Shown here piece by piece: positions 27,554 to 33,860 of a stretch of DNA of 41,102 nucleotides (within the stretch, counting starts at the first letter, position 1; each line of letters begins with the position of its first letter). The DNA comes from Desulfuromonadaceae bacterium (GTDB lineage Bacteria; Desulfobacterota; Desulfuromonadia; Geobacterales; Pseudopelobacteraceae), in assembly GCA_028683435.1 (NCBI GenBank), contig JAQUIG010000024.1, forward strand, positions 1-41,102, in the 5' to 3' direction. Under the pieces are notes generated by a model, which was given only the letters and a program-made list of their open reading frames with translations, did not search any database and was not told the DNA's origin. A program made the translations under genes and the position numbers.

Positions 27554-29488
27554 TTAATCCGCCAGCATAACCCGCTGCATTTCTGCCTCAAGCACATTCA
27601 TGCTGTACGGCTTGCGGATGAATCCGCACGGGGGTTGATCGGTGATGCGCTCACTTAGTTCCTCTTTATTGAAACCGCTGGAAATGATCACCTTGACATT
27701 CGGCCTGATCAAGTAAATTTCACTCATGGCCGTTAAACCATCCATATTCGGCATCGTCAGATCCATCAGCACGACAGCAATCTCGTCAGCCTGTTCGCGG
27801 AATTTAGCGACGGCATCGATGCCGTCACAGGCGGTAATGACGGTGAAGCCGCAGAGCTGGACCATCTTCGTACAGATCTTCAGGACCTGCTTTTCATCAT
27901 CTACTACAAGGACCAGGCCGGAAAGCCGTTTCACCGGGGAGTCGCTTTCCGGTGGGGGAATAACCGGTTCTTGAACCGGCCTCGGCAGGGCAGATTCCGA
28001 TACCGGGAACAGCGCCCGGAAGGTTGTCCCCTTGCCCGGCTCACTCTCCACAAACAATGCACCGTTGTGCGTTCTTATTATCCCCATAACTGCCGACATT
28101 CCCAGCCCGCGCCCGGTAAACTTTGTCGTAAAGAAGGGGTCGAAGAGGCGTTGGAGGGTTTCCTGGCTCATGCCGCAGCCGTTATCACTGACCTCCAGAA
28201 AAACATAGCGGCCGGGTGCCGGTTTCTCCTCCAGCAGGCTGGCGGACAAACATGCTTGATCACAGCTCTGGGTGCCGGTCGTGATCCTGACCCGGCCCGG
28301 TTGTTCCAGAATAGATTCTGCAGCGTTGCTGATCAGATTCATGACCACCTGCTGAATATGAGCTATATCTGCAGTTATGGCCGGCAACTCCGGGGAGAGG
28401 TGCAACTCCGTTGAAACGGCTGCCGAGGTGGTCATCCGGAGCATTTCAGCGTTATCCCTGACCAGTTCATTCAGGTTCAACTCTTTTTTTGCCGTTAATC
28501 CCTTGCCGAGATACGTCAACATCAAGTTGGTAAGGTGAGCCGCGTGCTTGCCGGAGATTATGGCATTGGCGATATACTTTTGCGAGGCGGCATCGGCGGG
28601 GAGTTTCATCGAGGCCAGTTCAATATTGCCGAGAATGGCCTGCAGCAGGTTGTTGAAATCGTGGGCGATGCCACCCGCCATAATCCCCAGACTCTCCAGC
28701 TTCTGTGTCTGGAGCATCTGCCGCTCAATATCCAGACGCTCTTTCTGGAGGCGTATGTTTTCCCCGCCGCGTTGCTGTAATGCGTCCGCCAGGTTATTGA
28801 CGGCACGTGCCGCCCTTCCCGGTTCGTCATTTGATTCAATGTTTATCCGGGAGGTAAAACGGCCGTCCTGCATGGCATTTATGCCGCGGACAAGTGTGTT
28901 GAAAGAGCTGGTTACCCGCCGGAGCACCAGATGGCAGAGCAGGGAAACCGCCAGCCAGAAGGCGATGGCCACACTGGTGGAGAGCATAACAACCTGCCGG
29001 CGAGCCCGTGACAGGTCAGCCGTTCCCCGCTCAATGCGCACGCGGCCGATCTGCACTGCGGAGGTGGTTACGCCTCCGGTCATGGCCGATTCTACAGAAT
29101 CTACCAGTGGGTTGCTTTGCACCTCAACCGTCTCGATGATGTTGCCACTTTTGTTGGAATAACCCGGTGAGTGGTACTGAGCGAGTACTCTGTCGTCCGG
29201 AGCGGTGATCACCACCGCCCGTATTTCTGGTGCCACGGCTACTTGTTCTGCCAGCAGGCGCAGGGTATCACGGTTTTCGGCATAGAGCGGGAGCCGGATG
29301 GAATCGGCCAGTTGCCGTGCCCGTAGCTGAAGCTGTTCGCTAGCAAGGCGGTGTGCTTTATGGTTTTCAGTGACGATGTACAGAACACTCAGCAGAGAGG
29401 CGATCAGAAAGGTCAACAGGGTAAAGATGAGGAAGAGTTTGAACTGGAAGCTGGTACAAAAGTTTGACCATCGGGTACACAGTGGCAC
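27554..29488 (-). CDS. Hybrid sensor histidine kinase (periplasmic sensor, HAMP, kinase, receiver)
   Basis: About 644 residues. The GTG at 29488 has GAGG eight bases upstream; a TTG at 29494 is the alternative. Two membrane helices (about 16-38 and 167-190) enclose a periplasmic domain of about 125 residues, followed by HAMP (to about 240). The H-box [17 protein letters not shown] puts the phospho-His near 276. ATPase boxes [17 protein letters not shown] and [12 protein letters not shown] follow. A C-terminal receiver has VVDDEK and the phospho-acceptor Asp in LMDLTMP. No output domain, so it must signal to another protein. It is last in the operon with the TonB receptor and binding protein. 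Confidence 0.93.
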
Positions 29489-29546
29489 GGCCAATACCTC
29501 ACAGGGTTTAGTGTTTTCTTATAAAACAGGTATCATGCCCTGATAG

Positions 29547-30422
29547 CTATTGCAACGGTGAATCGTCTTCATTAATGGCAATTCTCAGGCGCTTCAAAAC
29601 GCTGGAGTTGGTTTTTAATGTAATGCCTTTCGGCAAGTCGAGCGGCATGCTCTCTATGCTGCTGCCCCTCAGGATCTCTGTCATCATGACGTCAGCCTGG
29701 CGACCTATGGCGCCCCGATCGATTTCAAGCACCGCAGCGGCACCGAGCCCAAGATAAGCGGCGGCGAAGGAGACCACCGGGATATGCTGCTCCTGGCCGA
29801 AACGGAAATATGCCTCTGCTGTTTCCCTGGTGACCGCCGTGCTGTCGGGCAGCATCCAGAGGGCATCCACCTTGTCGGCCAGCGCCGATAAGCGTCCGAT
29901 TGATTCGCGTGGCGCCGAGACTTCGCGGACCACCAGTTCGATGCCGGCCGCTTCGGCGGCACGTTGGGCCAGGCGCAGATACCAGCCGCTTTTGGCCGGA
30001 TTGTAGATCACGCCGACGCGTCTTGTTTTCATGTTTTTGAATATGCCGATATAGCGTTCCGGCGGGGCGAACATCGGGATACCGGTCAGATTGTTGTGTG
30101 AAACTTTATGTCTGTTGATGCCGAGCGACATGACGGCAACCACCGGCGTGTTACGGACATTGCGGGCTGCTGTCAGGGCGGCGTCACCAAGGGCCAGGAT
30201 CACCCGGGGGCGATCTTCGCGCACGATCCGCACGACATCCACTTCGGCGTAGTCGGACAGCACAACGACGCGCTGTGAGGCGTTATGCCCGGCGCGCAAA
30301 CCTTTCAGTACCTGCTCATAAGCCGGATCACGACGGCTCTGGAGTATCAGGATGTCGTACGCCTGGGCCAGGGAGGGGAGCAGGGTCGCCAGGGCGAGTA
30401 TGAGGAGAATAAAGCGTCTCAT
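29547..30422 (-). CDS. Orphan ABC-type periplasmic substrate-binding protein
   Basis: 291 residues with a clear signal peptide (MRRFILLILALATLLPSLAQA, cleaved before YD). It matches the ABC_sub_bind family: ILILQSRRDPAYEQVLKGLR, ALGDAALTAAR, RVGVIYNPAKSGWYL and VDALWMLPDSTAV, two lobes of type I periplasmic binding fold. No permease or ATPase gene is nearby, which points to ligand presentation to the adjacent sensor kinase instead of import (inference). Its ATG overlaps the TonB-receptor stop by one base, giving translational coupling. Confidence 0.9.
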   Translation of the reverse strand: MRRFILLILALATLLPSLAQAYDILILQSRRDPAYEQVLKGLRAGHNASQRVVVLSDYAEVDVVRIVREDRPRVILALGDAALTAARNVRNTPVVAVMSLGINRHKVSHNNLTGIPMFAPPERYIGIFKNMKTRRVGVIYNPAKSGWYLRLAQRAAEAAGIELVVREVSAPRESIGRLSALADKVDALWMLPDSTAVTRETAEAYFRFGQEQHIPVVSFAAAYLGLGAAAVLEIDRGAIGRQADVMMTEILRGSSIESMPLDLPKGITLKTNSSVLKRLRIAINEDDSPLQ

Positions 30423-32302
30423 CAGAAGTTCACCCTCACTCCGCCTTCAAACCAGCGGCCTACATTTGGGAAAACATCTCTGTTATACTGAGTGCCATCG
30501 AACAGGTTATGGCCGGAGAAGAACAGTTCGAGCGAGCTGTTCTCACGCTTGAGCAGGGTAGCGCCGAGATGCAGATCCCATAAAAGTCCGGGTTTGCTAA
30601 AATCATCCGGTGCCGAATTCCAATAGAGATACTGGCCGCTTAACACGCCACGGAATGTTTTATCATCATACCGCAGTGCCATTTTCAGTGTATGGCGGGC
30701 AATATTATTGCTATATACAAAAGAACCATCAGCGGTACGAGTAGTCTCGGTAAAGGTATAGCCAGTCCCCAGGGAAGTATTGAAGAGCGGTACGGTACGG
30801 ACTTCCAGTTCAGTACCCAAGGCGACGCGGCGCTCGGGAATTGTATAGTCCAGATTAGAACCATCCACAACATTCCATGTTTCATTGCGGAACAGCGTTG
30901 CTTTAACCCACAGATAGGGTATGGCGCTGCTCTCAGCACCAAACTGACTGGTCCATATTTTTGCCGATGGGCTGTCGGTTGCAAGCAGTAGGGGCAGGCC
31001 GTAACCGCGACCGGTGTAGGCGCGCAGCAGTGTGCTGTCGGTTAGTTGATATGTGGCGCCCAGAGAGTAGCTGACCTGATCGCCGCTGGTCTGGGTATGA
31101 TCCAGTCGCACACTCGGACTCAGACTCATAGGCCCCAGTGTCAGGGTGTCATTGAGGTAGATGCCCCAGCGATCAACGGTACGTGTAAAAGGGCTGAGTG
31201 TGCTGGCGTCGACAGAGTTTGACTGTGTTTCATGATGGTTGTAATCGCTGCCTGCCACCAGGAGATTGTCATAGCCTCGCCATATCAGCTTGGCACTGCT
31301 TCCAAATGTCTGTTCCCTGCTGCTGGCTGTCGGCAATTCGGGCGCTTGGTACTGCCACAGCAGACCGTCACTTATGTTGAAATATGACGTATCATCGGCC
31401 CGTGAATAATGGCGTCCGGTAAGTTCGAGCTCAAGGCTGTCGGTAAGGTGGTAACGAAGTCCAATCGAAGCCAGTTTCTGACTCTTGACATTACGTTCCT
31501 TCAGATCATAGTCATGGATTGGTACATAGAGATCGCCCATATTAGCATGAATATAGCCGAATGTTCCCCAGAGCAGACCTTGCTTGGGGAGGTCATAGGT
31601 CAATTTGGCATAGGCGTGGTTGGAGCCGATCTGCATGGTCGGAAGCAGGCCGTTGGAGCCGAGGTAACCGCCGGAAAAAAAATAACCAACTTTACCGGTG
31701 GTGCCGCTCAGTTGTGCGCTCGTATCTGCTGTGGTGCGTTCTCCGATAGAAGCGGTCGCTGAGCCGCTGATGGCTCGTTCTTTTTCCGGCGACTTGGTTA
31801 TGACATTAATCACCCCGCCCAAGGCAGACCCCCATGACGCTGAGGCGGCACCTTTGATTATTTCGACTCTGTCGATAATTTGAGCCGGTATTAAGGACAC
31901 GTCAGTGTAGTTGCTCGGCAGAGCTGAGATTGAAACGCCGTCCACAAAGACTTGCGTATAAATATAATCGGTGCTTTGAATATAGGTGTAGGAGGTGATT
32001 CCCGGTCCGCCGTTGTGCTGTAGCTGGATGCCCGGAATGGTATTGAGGATGTCGTCCAGGGTGTGGGCGTTGAGCGCCCGGATGTCGGCGGCGGTGATGA
32101 CGGTGACGTTTTCGGCGGTCTGGGAAAGCGGCTTCGGCACGCGGGATATCGTAACGTCCTGCTCCTGCCAGGCGCTGAACAGATCCGTAGCGTCCTCGTT
32201 GTCCTCGCTCTCGCCCCAAGACACGGAAGGGATCAGGCAGATTGTCAGACAGAGGCTCAGAAAAAGTGCCCGCAGGCTATGTGCGTTGTTGTGAAATTTC
32301 AT
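30422..32302 (-). CDS. TonB-dependent outer-membrane receptor
   Basis: 626 residues from the ATG at 32302, which opens a signal peptide (MKFHNNAHSLRALFLSLCLT, cleaved near SVSWG-ES). The open frame extends upstream to 32473 but overlaps the divergent peptide gene and is rejected. Plug domain: ENVTVITAADIRALNAHTL, DILNTIPGIQLQ, VFVDGVSI and RVEIIKGAASASWGSALGG. The barrel ends in aromatic-terminated VRVNF as expected. The region SRVPKPLSQ before the plug may be a weak TonB box. BtuB-like in the plug, but the substrate is unknown. It leads the receptor, binding-protein and kinase operon. Confidence 0.93.
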   Translation of the reverse strand: MKFHNNAHSLRALFLSLCLTICLIPSVSWGESEDNEDATDLFSAWQEQDVTISRVPKPLSQTAENVTVITAADIRALNAHTLDDILNTIPGIQLQHNGGPGITSYTYIQSTDYIYTQVFVDGVSISALPSNYTDVSLIPAQIIDRVEIIKGAASASWGSALGGVINVITKSPEKERAISGSATASIGERTTADTSAQLSGTTGKVGYFFSGGYLGSNGLLPTMQIGSNHAYAKLTYDLPKQGLLWGTFGYIHANMGDLYVPIHDYDLKERNVKSQKLASIGLRYHLTDSLELELTGRHYSRADDTSYFNISDGLLWQYQAPELPTASSREQTFGSSAKLIWRGYDNLLVAGSDYNHHETQSNSVDASTLSPFTRTVDRWGIYLNDTLTLGPMSLSPSVRLDHTQTSGDQVSYSLGATYQLTDSTLLRAYTGRGYGLPLLLATDSPSAKIWTSQFGAESSAIPYLWVKATLFRNETWNVVDGSNLDYTIPERRVALGTELEVRTVPLFNTSLGTGYTFTETTRTADGSFVYSNNIARHTLKMALRYDDKTFRGVLSGQYLYWNSAPDDFSKPGLLWDLHLGATLLKRENSSLELFFSGHNLFDGTQYNRDVFPNVGRWFEGGVRVNF

Positions 32303-32381
32303 AGGATTTTGTATTTTAATTAACAGCGAAGATACTGTATTGTCCAGTAAAATATGTATACAGGAAAGGGGGGTGATACTC

Positions 32382-32480
32382 ATGCATGAAGAGACCAATG
32401 ACTTGATGGTGCTGGAAGAAGGCGGAGAGGCAAATGTTGTGAATAGCTGTTGCAAGGGGACTGCATCTGCCAAGCTGTAA
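32382..32480 (+). CDS. Geopeptide-like RiPP precursor peptide
   Basis: 32 residues, ATG after AGGAAAGGGGGG. The N-terminal 19 residues are acidic (ETNDLM, LEEGGEAN), a typical leader. The C-terminal part, VVNSCCKGTASAKL, holds adjacent Cys 23-Cys 24 and small Ser/Thr/Ala residues. It lies 72 bases upstream of a radical SAM/SPASM gene in the same direction. Small size, acidic leader, Cys-containing tail and position together mark it as the substrate. The name follows the TIGRFAM geopeptide family, which I recall but could not search. Confidence 0.78.
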   Translation: MHEETNDLMVLEEGGEANVVNSCCKGTASAKL

Positions 32481-32552
32481 GCATTAAGTGTGTAGCTGGT
32501 GGGCGGTGCTCGCCAGCTACACAGCCGAAGAAAGCAATAAAAGGAGCTTGCA

Positions 32553-33860
32553 TTGCAGCTATCACACTACATCATGACCTACCCATGCCGAGATAAACCG
32601 GGGCGTATGTTGCTGATCGCAACCCGGCGCTGCGCCGTTCTGGAGCTGTCCGAAACACTGTGGAGCAGAGTGCGTGATGGCGGCGAGCTGACCGAAAACG
32701 AGCAGAACACTTTTATCCGCCTCGGAGTGCTGGTGGAAAATCGTGCCGCAGAACGGGAGGAGATGCGAGCCACCTTTGACACTATTAATGCCGACTGTCG
32801 CCGCTTTGAGGTGACTGCTGTTCTGACCCTGGAGTGCAACCTGGCCTGCCCCTACTGTTTTGAAGATCCTTTTCGCGGACGCTTCGTGATGAGCGCGGAA
32901 ACCGCCGACCTGCTGGTGCGGCGGCTGAACGAGCGCATGGCCGCCGGCCTCGATATCCTGGTGGATTTCTACGGCGGCGAGGCTTTGATGCGGCTGGACC
33001 TGCTGCGCGGAATTGCCACGCGCCTGAAAGATGCAGCTGCGGAACAGGGGGTCGCCTTTACATTCAACATTTTTTCCAATGGCGTTCTGCTGACCCGCAG
33101 CGTGGTGGAAGAGCTGCTGCCGCTGGGGCTTCATGCGGTGCGGACAACACTGGACGGTCCTCCTGATATCCACGACATCCAGCGCCCTTTTGTCTCCGGC
33201 AAAGGGAGTTTTGACGTTATTATGAAAAACATGGTTGCCGTACAAGATATCGTTGTCCTGGACGTAGGAGGCAACTACACCCGCGACAACTACCGCCGTT
33301 TTCCCGAGTTGCTGGACATCATGCTGGCGGCGGGCATTGATCCGGCACGCTTGAAGGCGATCAGCTTTTCGCCGGTTATGCCCAAGGCGGACGGCAGCGG
33401 CTTGGGGGATCACGCCGCGACCTGTGCTTGCAGCAATGAGCCGTGGAGCGTCGAAGCCAATCTGTTTCTGCGTGATGAAATCATGCGGCGCGGCTTCCCC
33501 ACTGAAAAACTTCAGGCGAGCGCCTGCATGATCGAGTTCACCAATGATATCGTTGTGGGTTACGACGGTAGCCTCTACAAATGCCCGGTTTTCATGGGAC
33601 AGGAAGAGATGCGAGTCGGCACCCTGGCTGACGGCATCAACGATTACCGCCATTCCCACAATATGGATGTCTGGAAAAACGACGAATGCCTGGAGTGCGC
33701 CTACCTGCCGTTCTGCTTTGGCGGCTGCCGCTTTTTCAACAAGCTGAAAACCGGCAGCATCGATGGCGTCGATTGCCGCCGGGCCATGCTGGACGCGTCA
33801 TTAGAAACAATTATAAGGCAGGATCTGGGGGTAGGGACGGCAGCATTAATCACAAGGTAA
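32553..33860 (+). CDS. Radical SAM/SPASM peptide-modifying enzyme (geopeptide maturase type)
   Basis: 435 residues. The TTG at 32553 is chosen because AAGGAG lies six bases ahead; the ATG at 32574 would be 27 bases away. Residues 1-85 look like a peptide-recognition N-domain (SHYIMTYPCRDKPGRMLLIA). The radical SAM motif CNLACPYC binds the 4Fe-4S cluster through Cys 95, 99 and 102, and FYGGEALM follows. The C-terminal SPASM region has about eight more Cys, including YKCPVF, CLECAYLPFCFGGCRFF and DCRRAM, enough for two auxiliary clusters. Such enzymes install thioether or carbon-carbon links in peptides. The substrate is presumed to be the peptide at 32382. No protease or exporter gene is adjacent. 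Confidence 0.92.
   Translation: MQLSHYIMTYPCRDKPGRMLLIATRRCAVLELSETLWSRVRDGGELTENEQNTFIRLGVLVENRAAEREEMRATFDTINADCRRFEVTAVLTLECNLACPYCFEDPFRGRFVMSAETADLLVRRLNERMAAGLDILVDFYGGEALMRLDLLRGIATRLKDAAAEQGVAFTFNIFSNGVLLTRSVVEELLPLGLHAVRTTLDGPPDIHDIQRPFVSGKGSFDVIMKNMVAVQDIVVLDVGGNYTRDNYRRFPELLDIMLAAGIDPARLKAISFSPVMPKADGSGLGDHAATCACSNEPWSVEANLFLRDEIMRRGFPTEKLQASACMIEFTNDIVVGYDGSLYKCPVFMGQEEMRVGTLADGINDYRHSHNMDVWKNDECLECAYLPFCFGGCRFFNKLKTGSIDGVDCRRAMLDASLETIIRQDLGVGTAALITR

Follow-up and report, generated by a model that had tools for sequence, protein, structure and literature searches.

The window analysed here is the whole 41,102-nucleotide stretch of contig JAQUIG010000024.1 from a Desulfuromonadaceae bacterium. 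Within it, a small peptide gene precedes the gene for a radical SAM enzyme, and genes for a TonB-dependent receptor, a binding protein and a kinase run divergently from them. This arrangement, first described from the raw sequence, is confirmed by open reading frames and profile matches:

32382-32480, + strand: geopeptide precursor, 32 aa (ORF MHEETNDLMVLEEGGEANVVNSCCKGTASAKL)
32362-32376, + strand: purine-rich stretch, AGGAAAGGGGGGTGA, probably the ribosome-binding site for the peptide ORF (from sequence)
32489-32523, + strand: 16-pair hairpin in the peptide/maturase intergenic region (folding z -4.7)
32553-33860, + strand: geopeptide radical SAM/SPASM maturase, TTG start (TIGR04280, 660.2 bits)
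30422-32302, - strand: TonB-dependent outer-membrane receptor (PF07715 and PF00593)
29547-30422, - strand: periplasmic type I binding protein with a signal-peptide-like N-terminus (PF04392)
27554-29494, - strand: hybrid sensor histidine kinase (HAMP, HisKA, HATPase and receiver domains)

The gap between the divergent units, reported by the first-pass annotation as 79 bases, runs exactly from 32303 to 32381, that is, from the receptor ATG to the peptide ATG. The same annotation described the receptor operon as translationally coupled; this is plausible for the receptor and binding protein genes because they overlap by one base (TGATG); the kinase gene, whose TTG start lies 52 bases past the binding-protein stop, gives no such indication. 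The interval originally assigned to the system (29488..33860) also leaves the kinase gene almost entirely outside. The hairpin between the peptide and maturase genes is a recurrent feature, with z < -2 in 96 of 109 loci compared with 4 of 109 control segments.

The enzyme matches the NCBIfam model TIGR04280, "geopeptide radical SAM maturase", over residues 1-426 with a score of 660.2 bits against a cut-off of 400. Its radical SAM CxxxCxxC motif reads CNLACPYC (residue 95), and a C-terminal SPASM-type region is recognised by TIGR04085 (53.4 bits, cut-off 27). The best sequence match among solved structures is PDB 5wgg (residues 91-253), presumably CteB, a SCIFF/ranthipeptide maturase; in the NCBIfam comparison, the models that follow TIGR04280 include those for CefB and PapB. 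The precursor combines an acidic leader, containing L-M-V-L-E-E-G, with a Cys-Cys core, and the peptide itself has no NCBIfam or Pfam match. A Cys-Cys peptide is encoded upstream of 121 of 131 maturases, as it is here. Two adjacent cysteines occur in the core of 117 of the 119 strict-motif peptides; they are the sole cysteines in 87 of these 117 geopeptides, and in 52 the tail that follows them is at least about half hydrophobic. All five loci read outside the order have a Cys-Cys peptide near the maturase, that of L218 being devoid of the usual leader motif.

On the sensor side, the modelled receptor (pLDDT 83.9) has a BtuB-like fold, its best PDB matches being BtuB itself, and Pfam searches with E values up to 1 returned only plug and barrel, with no N-terminal signalling domain. 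The binding protein has a type I periplasmic binding-protein fold; TorT and LuxP chains were not among the 50 matches listed in its structure comparison, which does not count against a relationship to them. Hydropathy places two hydrophobic stretches in the kinase, one inside residues 12-44 and the other inside residues 167-194, and the approximately 120 residues that they flank probably constitute a periplasmic sensor region. Across loci, a hybrid kinase is exchanged for a kinase plus regulator: a sigma-54 regulator accompanies non-hybrid kinases and not hybrid ones (46 + 32 versus 4 exceptions, p 3e-18).

The first-pass annotation had proposed examining whether the receptor, binding protein and kinase genes co-occur with the peptide genes, and the link holds. 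Among 99 order-wide maturase loci with enough flanking sequence, 97 have the receptor nearby, 97 the binding protein and 87 a kinase, the remaining 12 containing no kinase of this profile; because the kinase and regulator profiles are generic, these are the softest of the counts. The two receptor and binding-protein exceptions (L177 and L181) are also without a recognisable geopeptide; together with L175, they form a maturase branch in which receptor, binding protein and recognisable geopeptide are all missing. At the level of the phylum, with maturase presence defined as a score over the TIGR04280 cut-off, 395 genomes divide into 31 with both maturase and receptor, none with the maturase only, 3 with the receptor only and 361 with neither (Fisher p 5e-43). 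The neighbourhood had been expected to prove fortuitous if receptor operons and peptide genes were widely found apart; instead, all 31 genomes with the maturase have the receptor, compared with 3 of the 364 others. Outside the order, it occurs in 23 of 23 maturase genomes and lies within 8 kb of 23 of 26 maturases. The gene content of the cassette is retained across three layouts.

The maturase-receptor link also tracks individual cassettes inside genomes. In a pairing test of 34 loci in 16 genomes, within-genome maturase and receptor distances correlated with r 0.645, compared with a permuted mean of 0.147, and none of 1000 permutations reached as high a value. Conversely, among the best 150 receptors listed in the order, 113 have a maturase or maturase fragment within 8 kb; maturase-free receptors are less frequent and are interspersed with cassette receptors in the tree. 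Receptor operons have also been kept at places from which the peptide and maturase genes have apparently disappeared.

We consider it probable that the locus is a self-contained cassette in which a self-made geopeptide acts as a signal that is captured and sensed, with the modified peptide as the inferred ligand of the receptor and binding protein. The maturase would modify the Cys-Cys geopeptide, most likely by installing a carbon-sulfur linkage, judging from the enzyme's relatives. The leader would then be cleaved off, probably close to the conserved Gly, and the core would exit the cell, to re-enter through the outer membrane via the TonB receptor. By analogy with LuxP-LuxQ and TorT-TorS, the binding protein may then hand the mature core over to the kinase on its periplasmic side. 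Gene content suggests that the output would pass through the kinase's own receiver domain or through the linked sigma-54 response regulator.

Two further steps of such a circuit were searched for. The cassette contains no exporter, and a C39 peptidase exporter as the export step is not supported, with matches in 70 of 141 order genomes and none in this genome. Likewise, scoring of 116 regions before the peptide gene with a sigma-54 consensus gave 8 regions with a score of at least 5, whereas shuffled sequences averaged 5.7 such regions and the antisense strand had 9; at a score of at least 6, there were 3 regions, against an average of 0.9 and a maximum of 5 after shuffling and a single one in antisense. 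Self-induction of the peptide is therefore unsupported, as no clear sigma-54 signal precedes its gene. Besides these two outcomes, the receptor operons without a maturase, the loci without a kinase of this profile, the maturase branch without receptor, binding protein and recognisable geopeptide, and the pattern of core variation described below all weigh against the signal reading.

An alternative, which we regard as unlikely, is that the sensor half detects some other molecule and turns on production of the peptide, whose role would be that of an effector such as an antimicrobial or redox peptide. Linked regulators often control an adjacent product, which counts in favour of this explanation, as does the want of any special co-variation between core and receptor. 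Over 95 loci, variation in the peptide core correlates more strongly with the maturase (r 0.70) than with the receptor (0.56). After removal of the maturase component, a core-receptor remainder of 0.26 is left (0 of 999 permutations as high); because the leader also shows 0.16, this weak co-variation is not core-specific. However, an effector peptide would have no need of an importer in the outer membrane, yet one is found in all 31 maturase genomes and in all three layouts, and the retention of receptor operons after apparent loss of peptide and maturase likewise argues against it.

A metallophore system, to which we assign a slightly lower probability still, would have the Cys-Cys peptide bind a metal, the receptor import the complex, and the binding protein and kinase govern metal supply. 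Metal chelates are common cargo of TonB receptors, the adjacent cysteines of nearly all cores would suit such a role, and receptor-only loci are compatible with chelator sharing. Against it stand the usual partnership with a kinase with phosphorelay and the tails of many cores, which are at least about half hydrophobic. The absence of a permease or ATPase, already remarked on for this locus, extends to the cassette loci in general, which hold no conserved gene of either kind: beyond the cassette genes and regulator, no ORF cluster appears in more than 18 of 133 loci, there is no recurring inner-membrane transporter, and of the 133 loci, some with short flanks, a motif search found one with an ABC-ATPase-like ORF. 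Where the first-pass annotation had left signalling and metallophore circuits side by side, the kinase and regulator pattern favours the former, and the latter is disfavoured because a conserved transporter gene is lacking.

A passive syntenic block with no functional coupling is highly improbable: descent does relate many loci, but phylum-wide presence and absence, rearranged layouts with retained content and cassette-specific inheritance in multi-copy genomes count strongly against it.

Extending the self-made signal reading to the whole family, we lean slightly towards a phylum-wide form of Gram-negative cell-cell signalling. In this view, a Cys-Cys peptide modified by a radical SAM enzyme would return to the cell through its own TonB receptor and be sensed by a binding-protein-fed kinase, with several parallel cassette-specific channels in a genome and receiver-only lineages arising by loss of the peptide genes. 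If true, this would add an inward outer-membrane route for a modified peptide as a signal, and receiver-only and producer lineages would be available for comparison. The order, taken from named relatives to be that of Geobacter, includes metal-reducing bacteria, and to our knowledge little is known of peptide communication among them. Through its regular association with receptor, binding protein and kinase, what was an orphan RiPP family becomes a signalling circuit open to experiment.

Our literature search returned no described function for the geopeptide maturase and no circuit of such design, although an earlier note of the partnership is possible. Radical SAM enzymes have reportedly been surveyed together with the peptides on which they act. 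The portion of PMC3023750 consulted concerns mycofactocin, and the NCBIfam entry TIGR04280, in the part consulted, names the enzyme alone; the partnership with receptor, binding protein and kinase is added here. Likeness to SCIFF/ranthipeptide maturases, whose products are characterised by non-alpha thioether links, lies in the best solved-structure match (PDB 5wgg), whereas geopeptides usually hold only two adjacent cysteines. In peptide quorum sensing, a peptide is secreted and then switches on the receptor that is linked to it; for the present pairing, genetic linkage is what is observed. What is shared with LuxP-LuxQ and TorT-TorS is the type I fold of the binding protein and, next to it, a kinase that probably has a periplasmic region; binding proteins act on LuxQ, TorS and LytS according to the consulted part of PMC6321045. 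Unlike in those systems, the regular partners here include a TonB receptor together with a gene pair for a modified peptide. Finally, the proposed feeding of a signalling chain by a TonB receptor recalls siderophore cell-surface signalling through FpvA and FecA, but no N-terminal signalling domain was found in the receptor described here, and a kinase replaces the sigma/anti-sigma pair.

The peptide gene of the window is followed by a radical SAM/SPASM gene whose product matches the geopeptide maturase family (NCBIfam TIGR04280, 660 bits), and only 79 bases separate the peptide gene from a divergent receptor operon.

Features of the cassette in the window
32382-32480, + strand: peptide gene (geopeptide), 32 residues
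32489-32523, + strand: hairpin of 35 bases between the peptide and maturase genes
32553-33860, + strand: radical SAM/SPASM maturase gene
30422-32302, - strand: TonB receptor gene, divergent from the peptide gene
29547-30422, - strand: binding-protein gene (PF04392)
27554-29494, - strand: hybrid kinase gene

Within this operon, the receptor and binding-protein genes have one base in common, and the kinase gene begins with a TTG codon 52 bases beyond the binding-protein gene. At strict thresholds, the receptor family and the binding-protein family each have a single member in the source genome.

In a profile search of 141 genomes of the order, 101 genomes exceeded the TIGR04280 cut-off. Regions were taken around matches above the cut-off and around some larger fragments, giving 133 locus records with a tblastn-found maturase, the window among them. 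A pattern-based scan of named contigs recovered at least 25 loci, far below the yield of the profile search, and is thus an underestimate of the family. For the peptide search, 133 maturase matches reaching the N-terminus were considered, of which two lay too near a contig end, leaving 131 scored. A Cys-Cys peptide was found upstream of 121 of these in a tally over both peptide searches, which includes the L176 peptide despite its missing the strict leader pattern, as well as those of L114, L116, L044 and L140, which came to light only in a search extended to 2.5 kb. The other upstream peptides carried C-x-C (three) or a single relevant Cys (two), and no recognisable peptide was found upstream of five of the 131. 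Loci with C-x-C or a single Cys in place of Cys-Cys are L110, L034, L184, L043 and L164; at L040, two tandem maturases accompany three similar geopeptides. The strict leader pattern, which demands Gly at position -1, was matched at 119 loci, with Glu at -2 in 85, Asp or Glu at -3 in 106, Leu at -4 in 105, Val or Ile at -5 in 118, and CC in 117. In these peptides, the tail after CC is bimodal, being either mainly polar or mainly hydrophobic.

Partner genes were counted from -7 to +8 kb at 99 loci with flanks of at least 5.5 kb on the left and 4.3 kb on the right. Receptor and binding protein were each present at 97 of the 99, a kinase at 87 and a sigma-54 response regulator at 60. All the profiles were derived from these very loci, and those for kinase and regulator are generic, so the first two counts are the meaningful ones. 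The first-pass annotation had put receptor, binding protein and kinase forward as a candidate system with the peptide and its enzyme, and their co-occurrence among relatives in the order supports such a link. From the locus maps, we read the content as constant over three layouts: divergent; receptor collinear and ahead of the peptide; and receptor convergent and downstream, plus a second binding protein. Both receptor and binding protein were missing at L177 and L181, where the maturase is divergent and a recognisable geopeptide absent. Together with L175, a similar locus outside the 99, these form a divergent TIGR04280 branch, above the cut-off and adjoining a kinase and sigma-54 regulator; at L175, too, receptor, binding protein and recognisable geopeptide are absent.

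Across the order, receptor matches occurred in 109 of 141 genomes and binding-protein matches in 113. A receptor was listed for 105 genomes, of which 96 carry a maturase or a piece of one as well and nine do not. Five genomes with a maturase or maturase fragment yielded no receptor match. In G010, G067, G074 and G084 the maturase is found at the contig end facing the expected receptor, or is just a fragment there, and G100 contains the receptorless L175 and one further piece. Profiles of receptor and binding protein built from the order only were then run, with the maturase profile, against 395 genomes of the phylum, the three runs being taken as covering one genome set. The maturase was above cut-off in 31, all of which had receptor and binding protein; three genomes had a receptor without a maturase and 361 had neither (p 5e-43), and 17 had a binding protein without a maturase. 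Genome G170, with a sub-threshold maturase (307 bits), had no receptor match. Outside the order, the receptor occurred in 23 of 23 maturase genomes, within 8 kb of 23 of the 26 maturases (no match on the same contig for the remaining three), with a binding protein within 9 kb of 20. A CC peptide lay near the maturase at all five out-of-order loci read, without the usual leader motif at L218.

Among the 150 best of a larger number of receptor matches in the order, 113 have a maturase or a piece of one within 8 kb, and 26 of the other 37 were examined by region. At L188, L190, L192, L193, L199 and L202, the sequence upstream of the receptor runs for 0.2 to 3.2 kb before the contig stops; this short stretch holds a geopeptide and a maturase piece at L192 and a geopeptide at L202. 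The maturase was absent from the available stretch of the other 20 regions, which at L212 reaches just 1.1 kb upstream. Peptides near lone receptors were sought at L188-L207. In the receptor tree, lone receptors are interspersed among cassette receptors, the 19 rows labelled lone needing 16 label changes against a shuffled mean of 18.1 (L194, with its binding-protein side cut, was labelled edge). Lone locus L191 and cassette locus L041 match at 97% across receptor and binding protein, whereas the next stretch is 283 bases in L191 (5010-5292) and 1761 bases in L041 (8845-10605), where it holds peptide and maturase; L191 thus appears to have recently lost the peptide pair at this site. Such loss is the simple reading, one whose direction unrooted-tree counts cannot prove.

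Sixteen genomes carry two or more complete cassettes (34 loci in all), and in these pairing was assessed by permuting partners inside each genome. The distance matrices for maturase and receptor correlated at r 0.645 (shuffled mean 0.147, maximum 0.549), and maturase and binding-protein distances at 0.391 (about 0 when shuffled), with 0 of 1000 shuffles as high in either case; therefore, a receptor tends to remain with the peptide-enzyme pair of its own cassette. The result demonstrates that the genes are inherited jointly; it does not demonstrate binding.

The gap between peptide and maturase genes folded with z < -2 (mononucleotide shuffles) in 96 of 109 cases, against 4 of 109 equal-length control segments inside the maturase gene; at a guess, the hairpin may set the peptide-to-enzyme ratio. 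On the output side, 82 loci have both a kinase and long flanks. At 46 of them the kinase is non-hybrid and accompanied by the sigma-54 regulator, and at 32 it is hybrid and the regulator is absent; there are four exceptions (three non-hybrid without regulator, one hybrid with it; p 3e-18). This complementarity is what a phosphorelay would need. The lack of a transporter ATPase, remarked on from the window, extends to the family: a motif search from -6.5 to +4.5 kb found an ABC-ATPase-like ORF at 1 of 133 loci, some with short flanks. Beyond the cassette genes and regulator, no further ORF cluster exceeded 18 of the 133 loci.

Counting against a self-made modified peptide that is captured by the receptor and binding protein and sensed by the kinase, no clear sigma-54 site was found ahead of the peptide gene, no export gene was found among the ORF clusters of the 133 loci or by a C39 peptidase search of the source genome, and the peptide core tracks the maturase better than it tracks the receptor. 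Overall, functional linkage of the cassette parts is near certain, and the modified peptide is likely to be the ligand of its cassette's sensing half.
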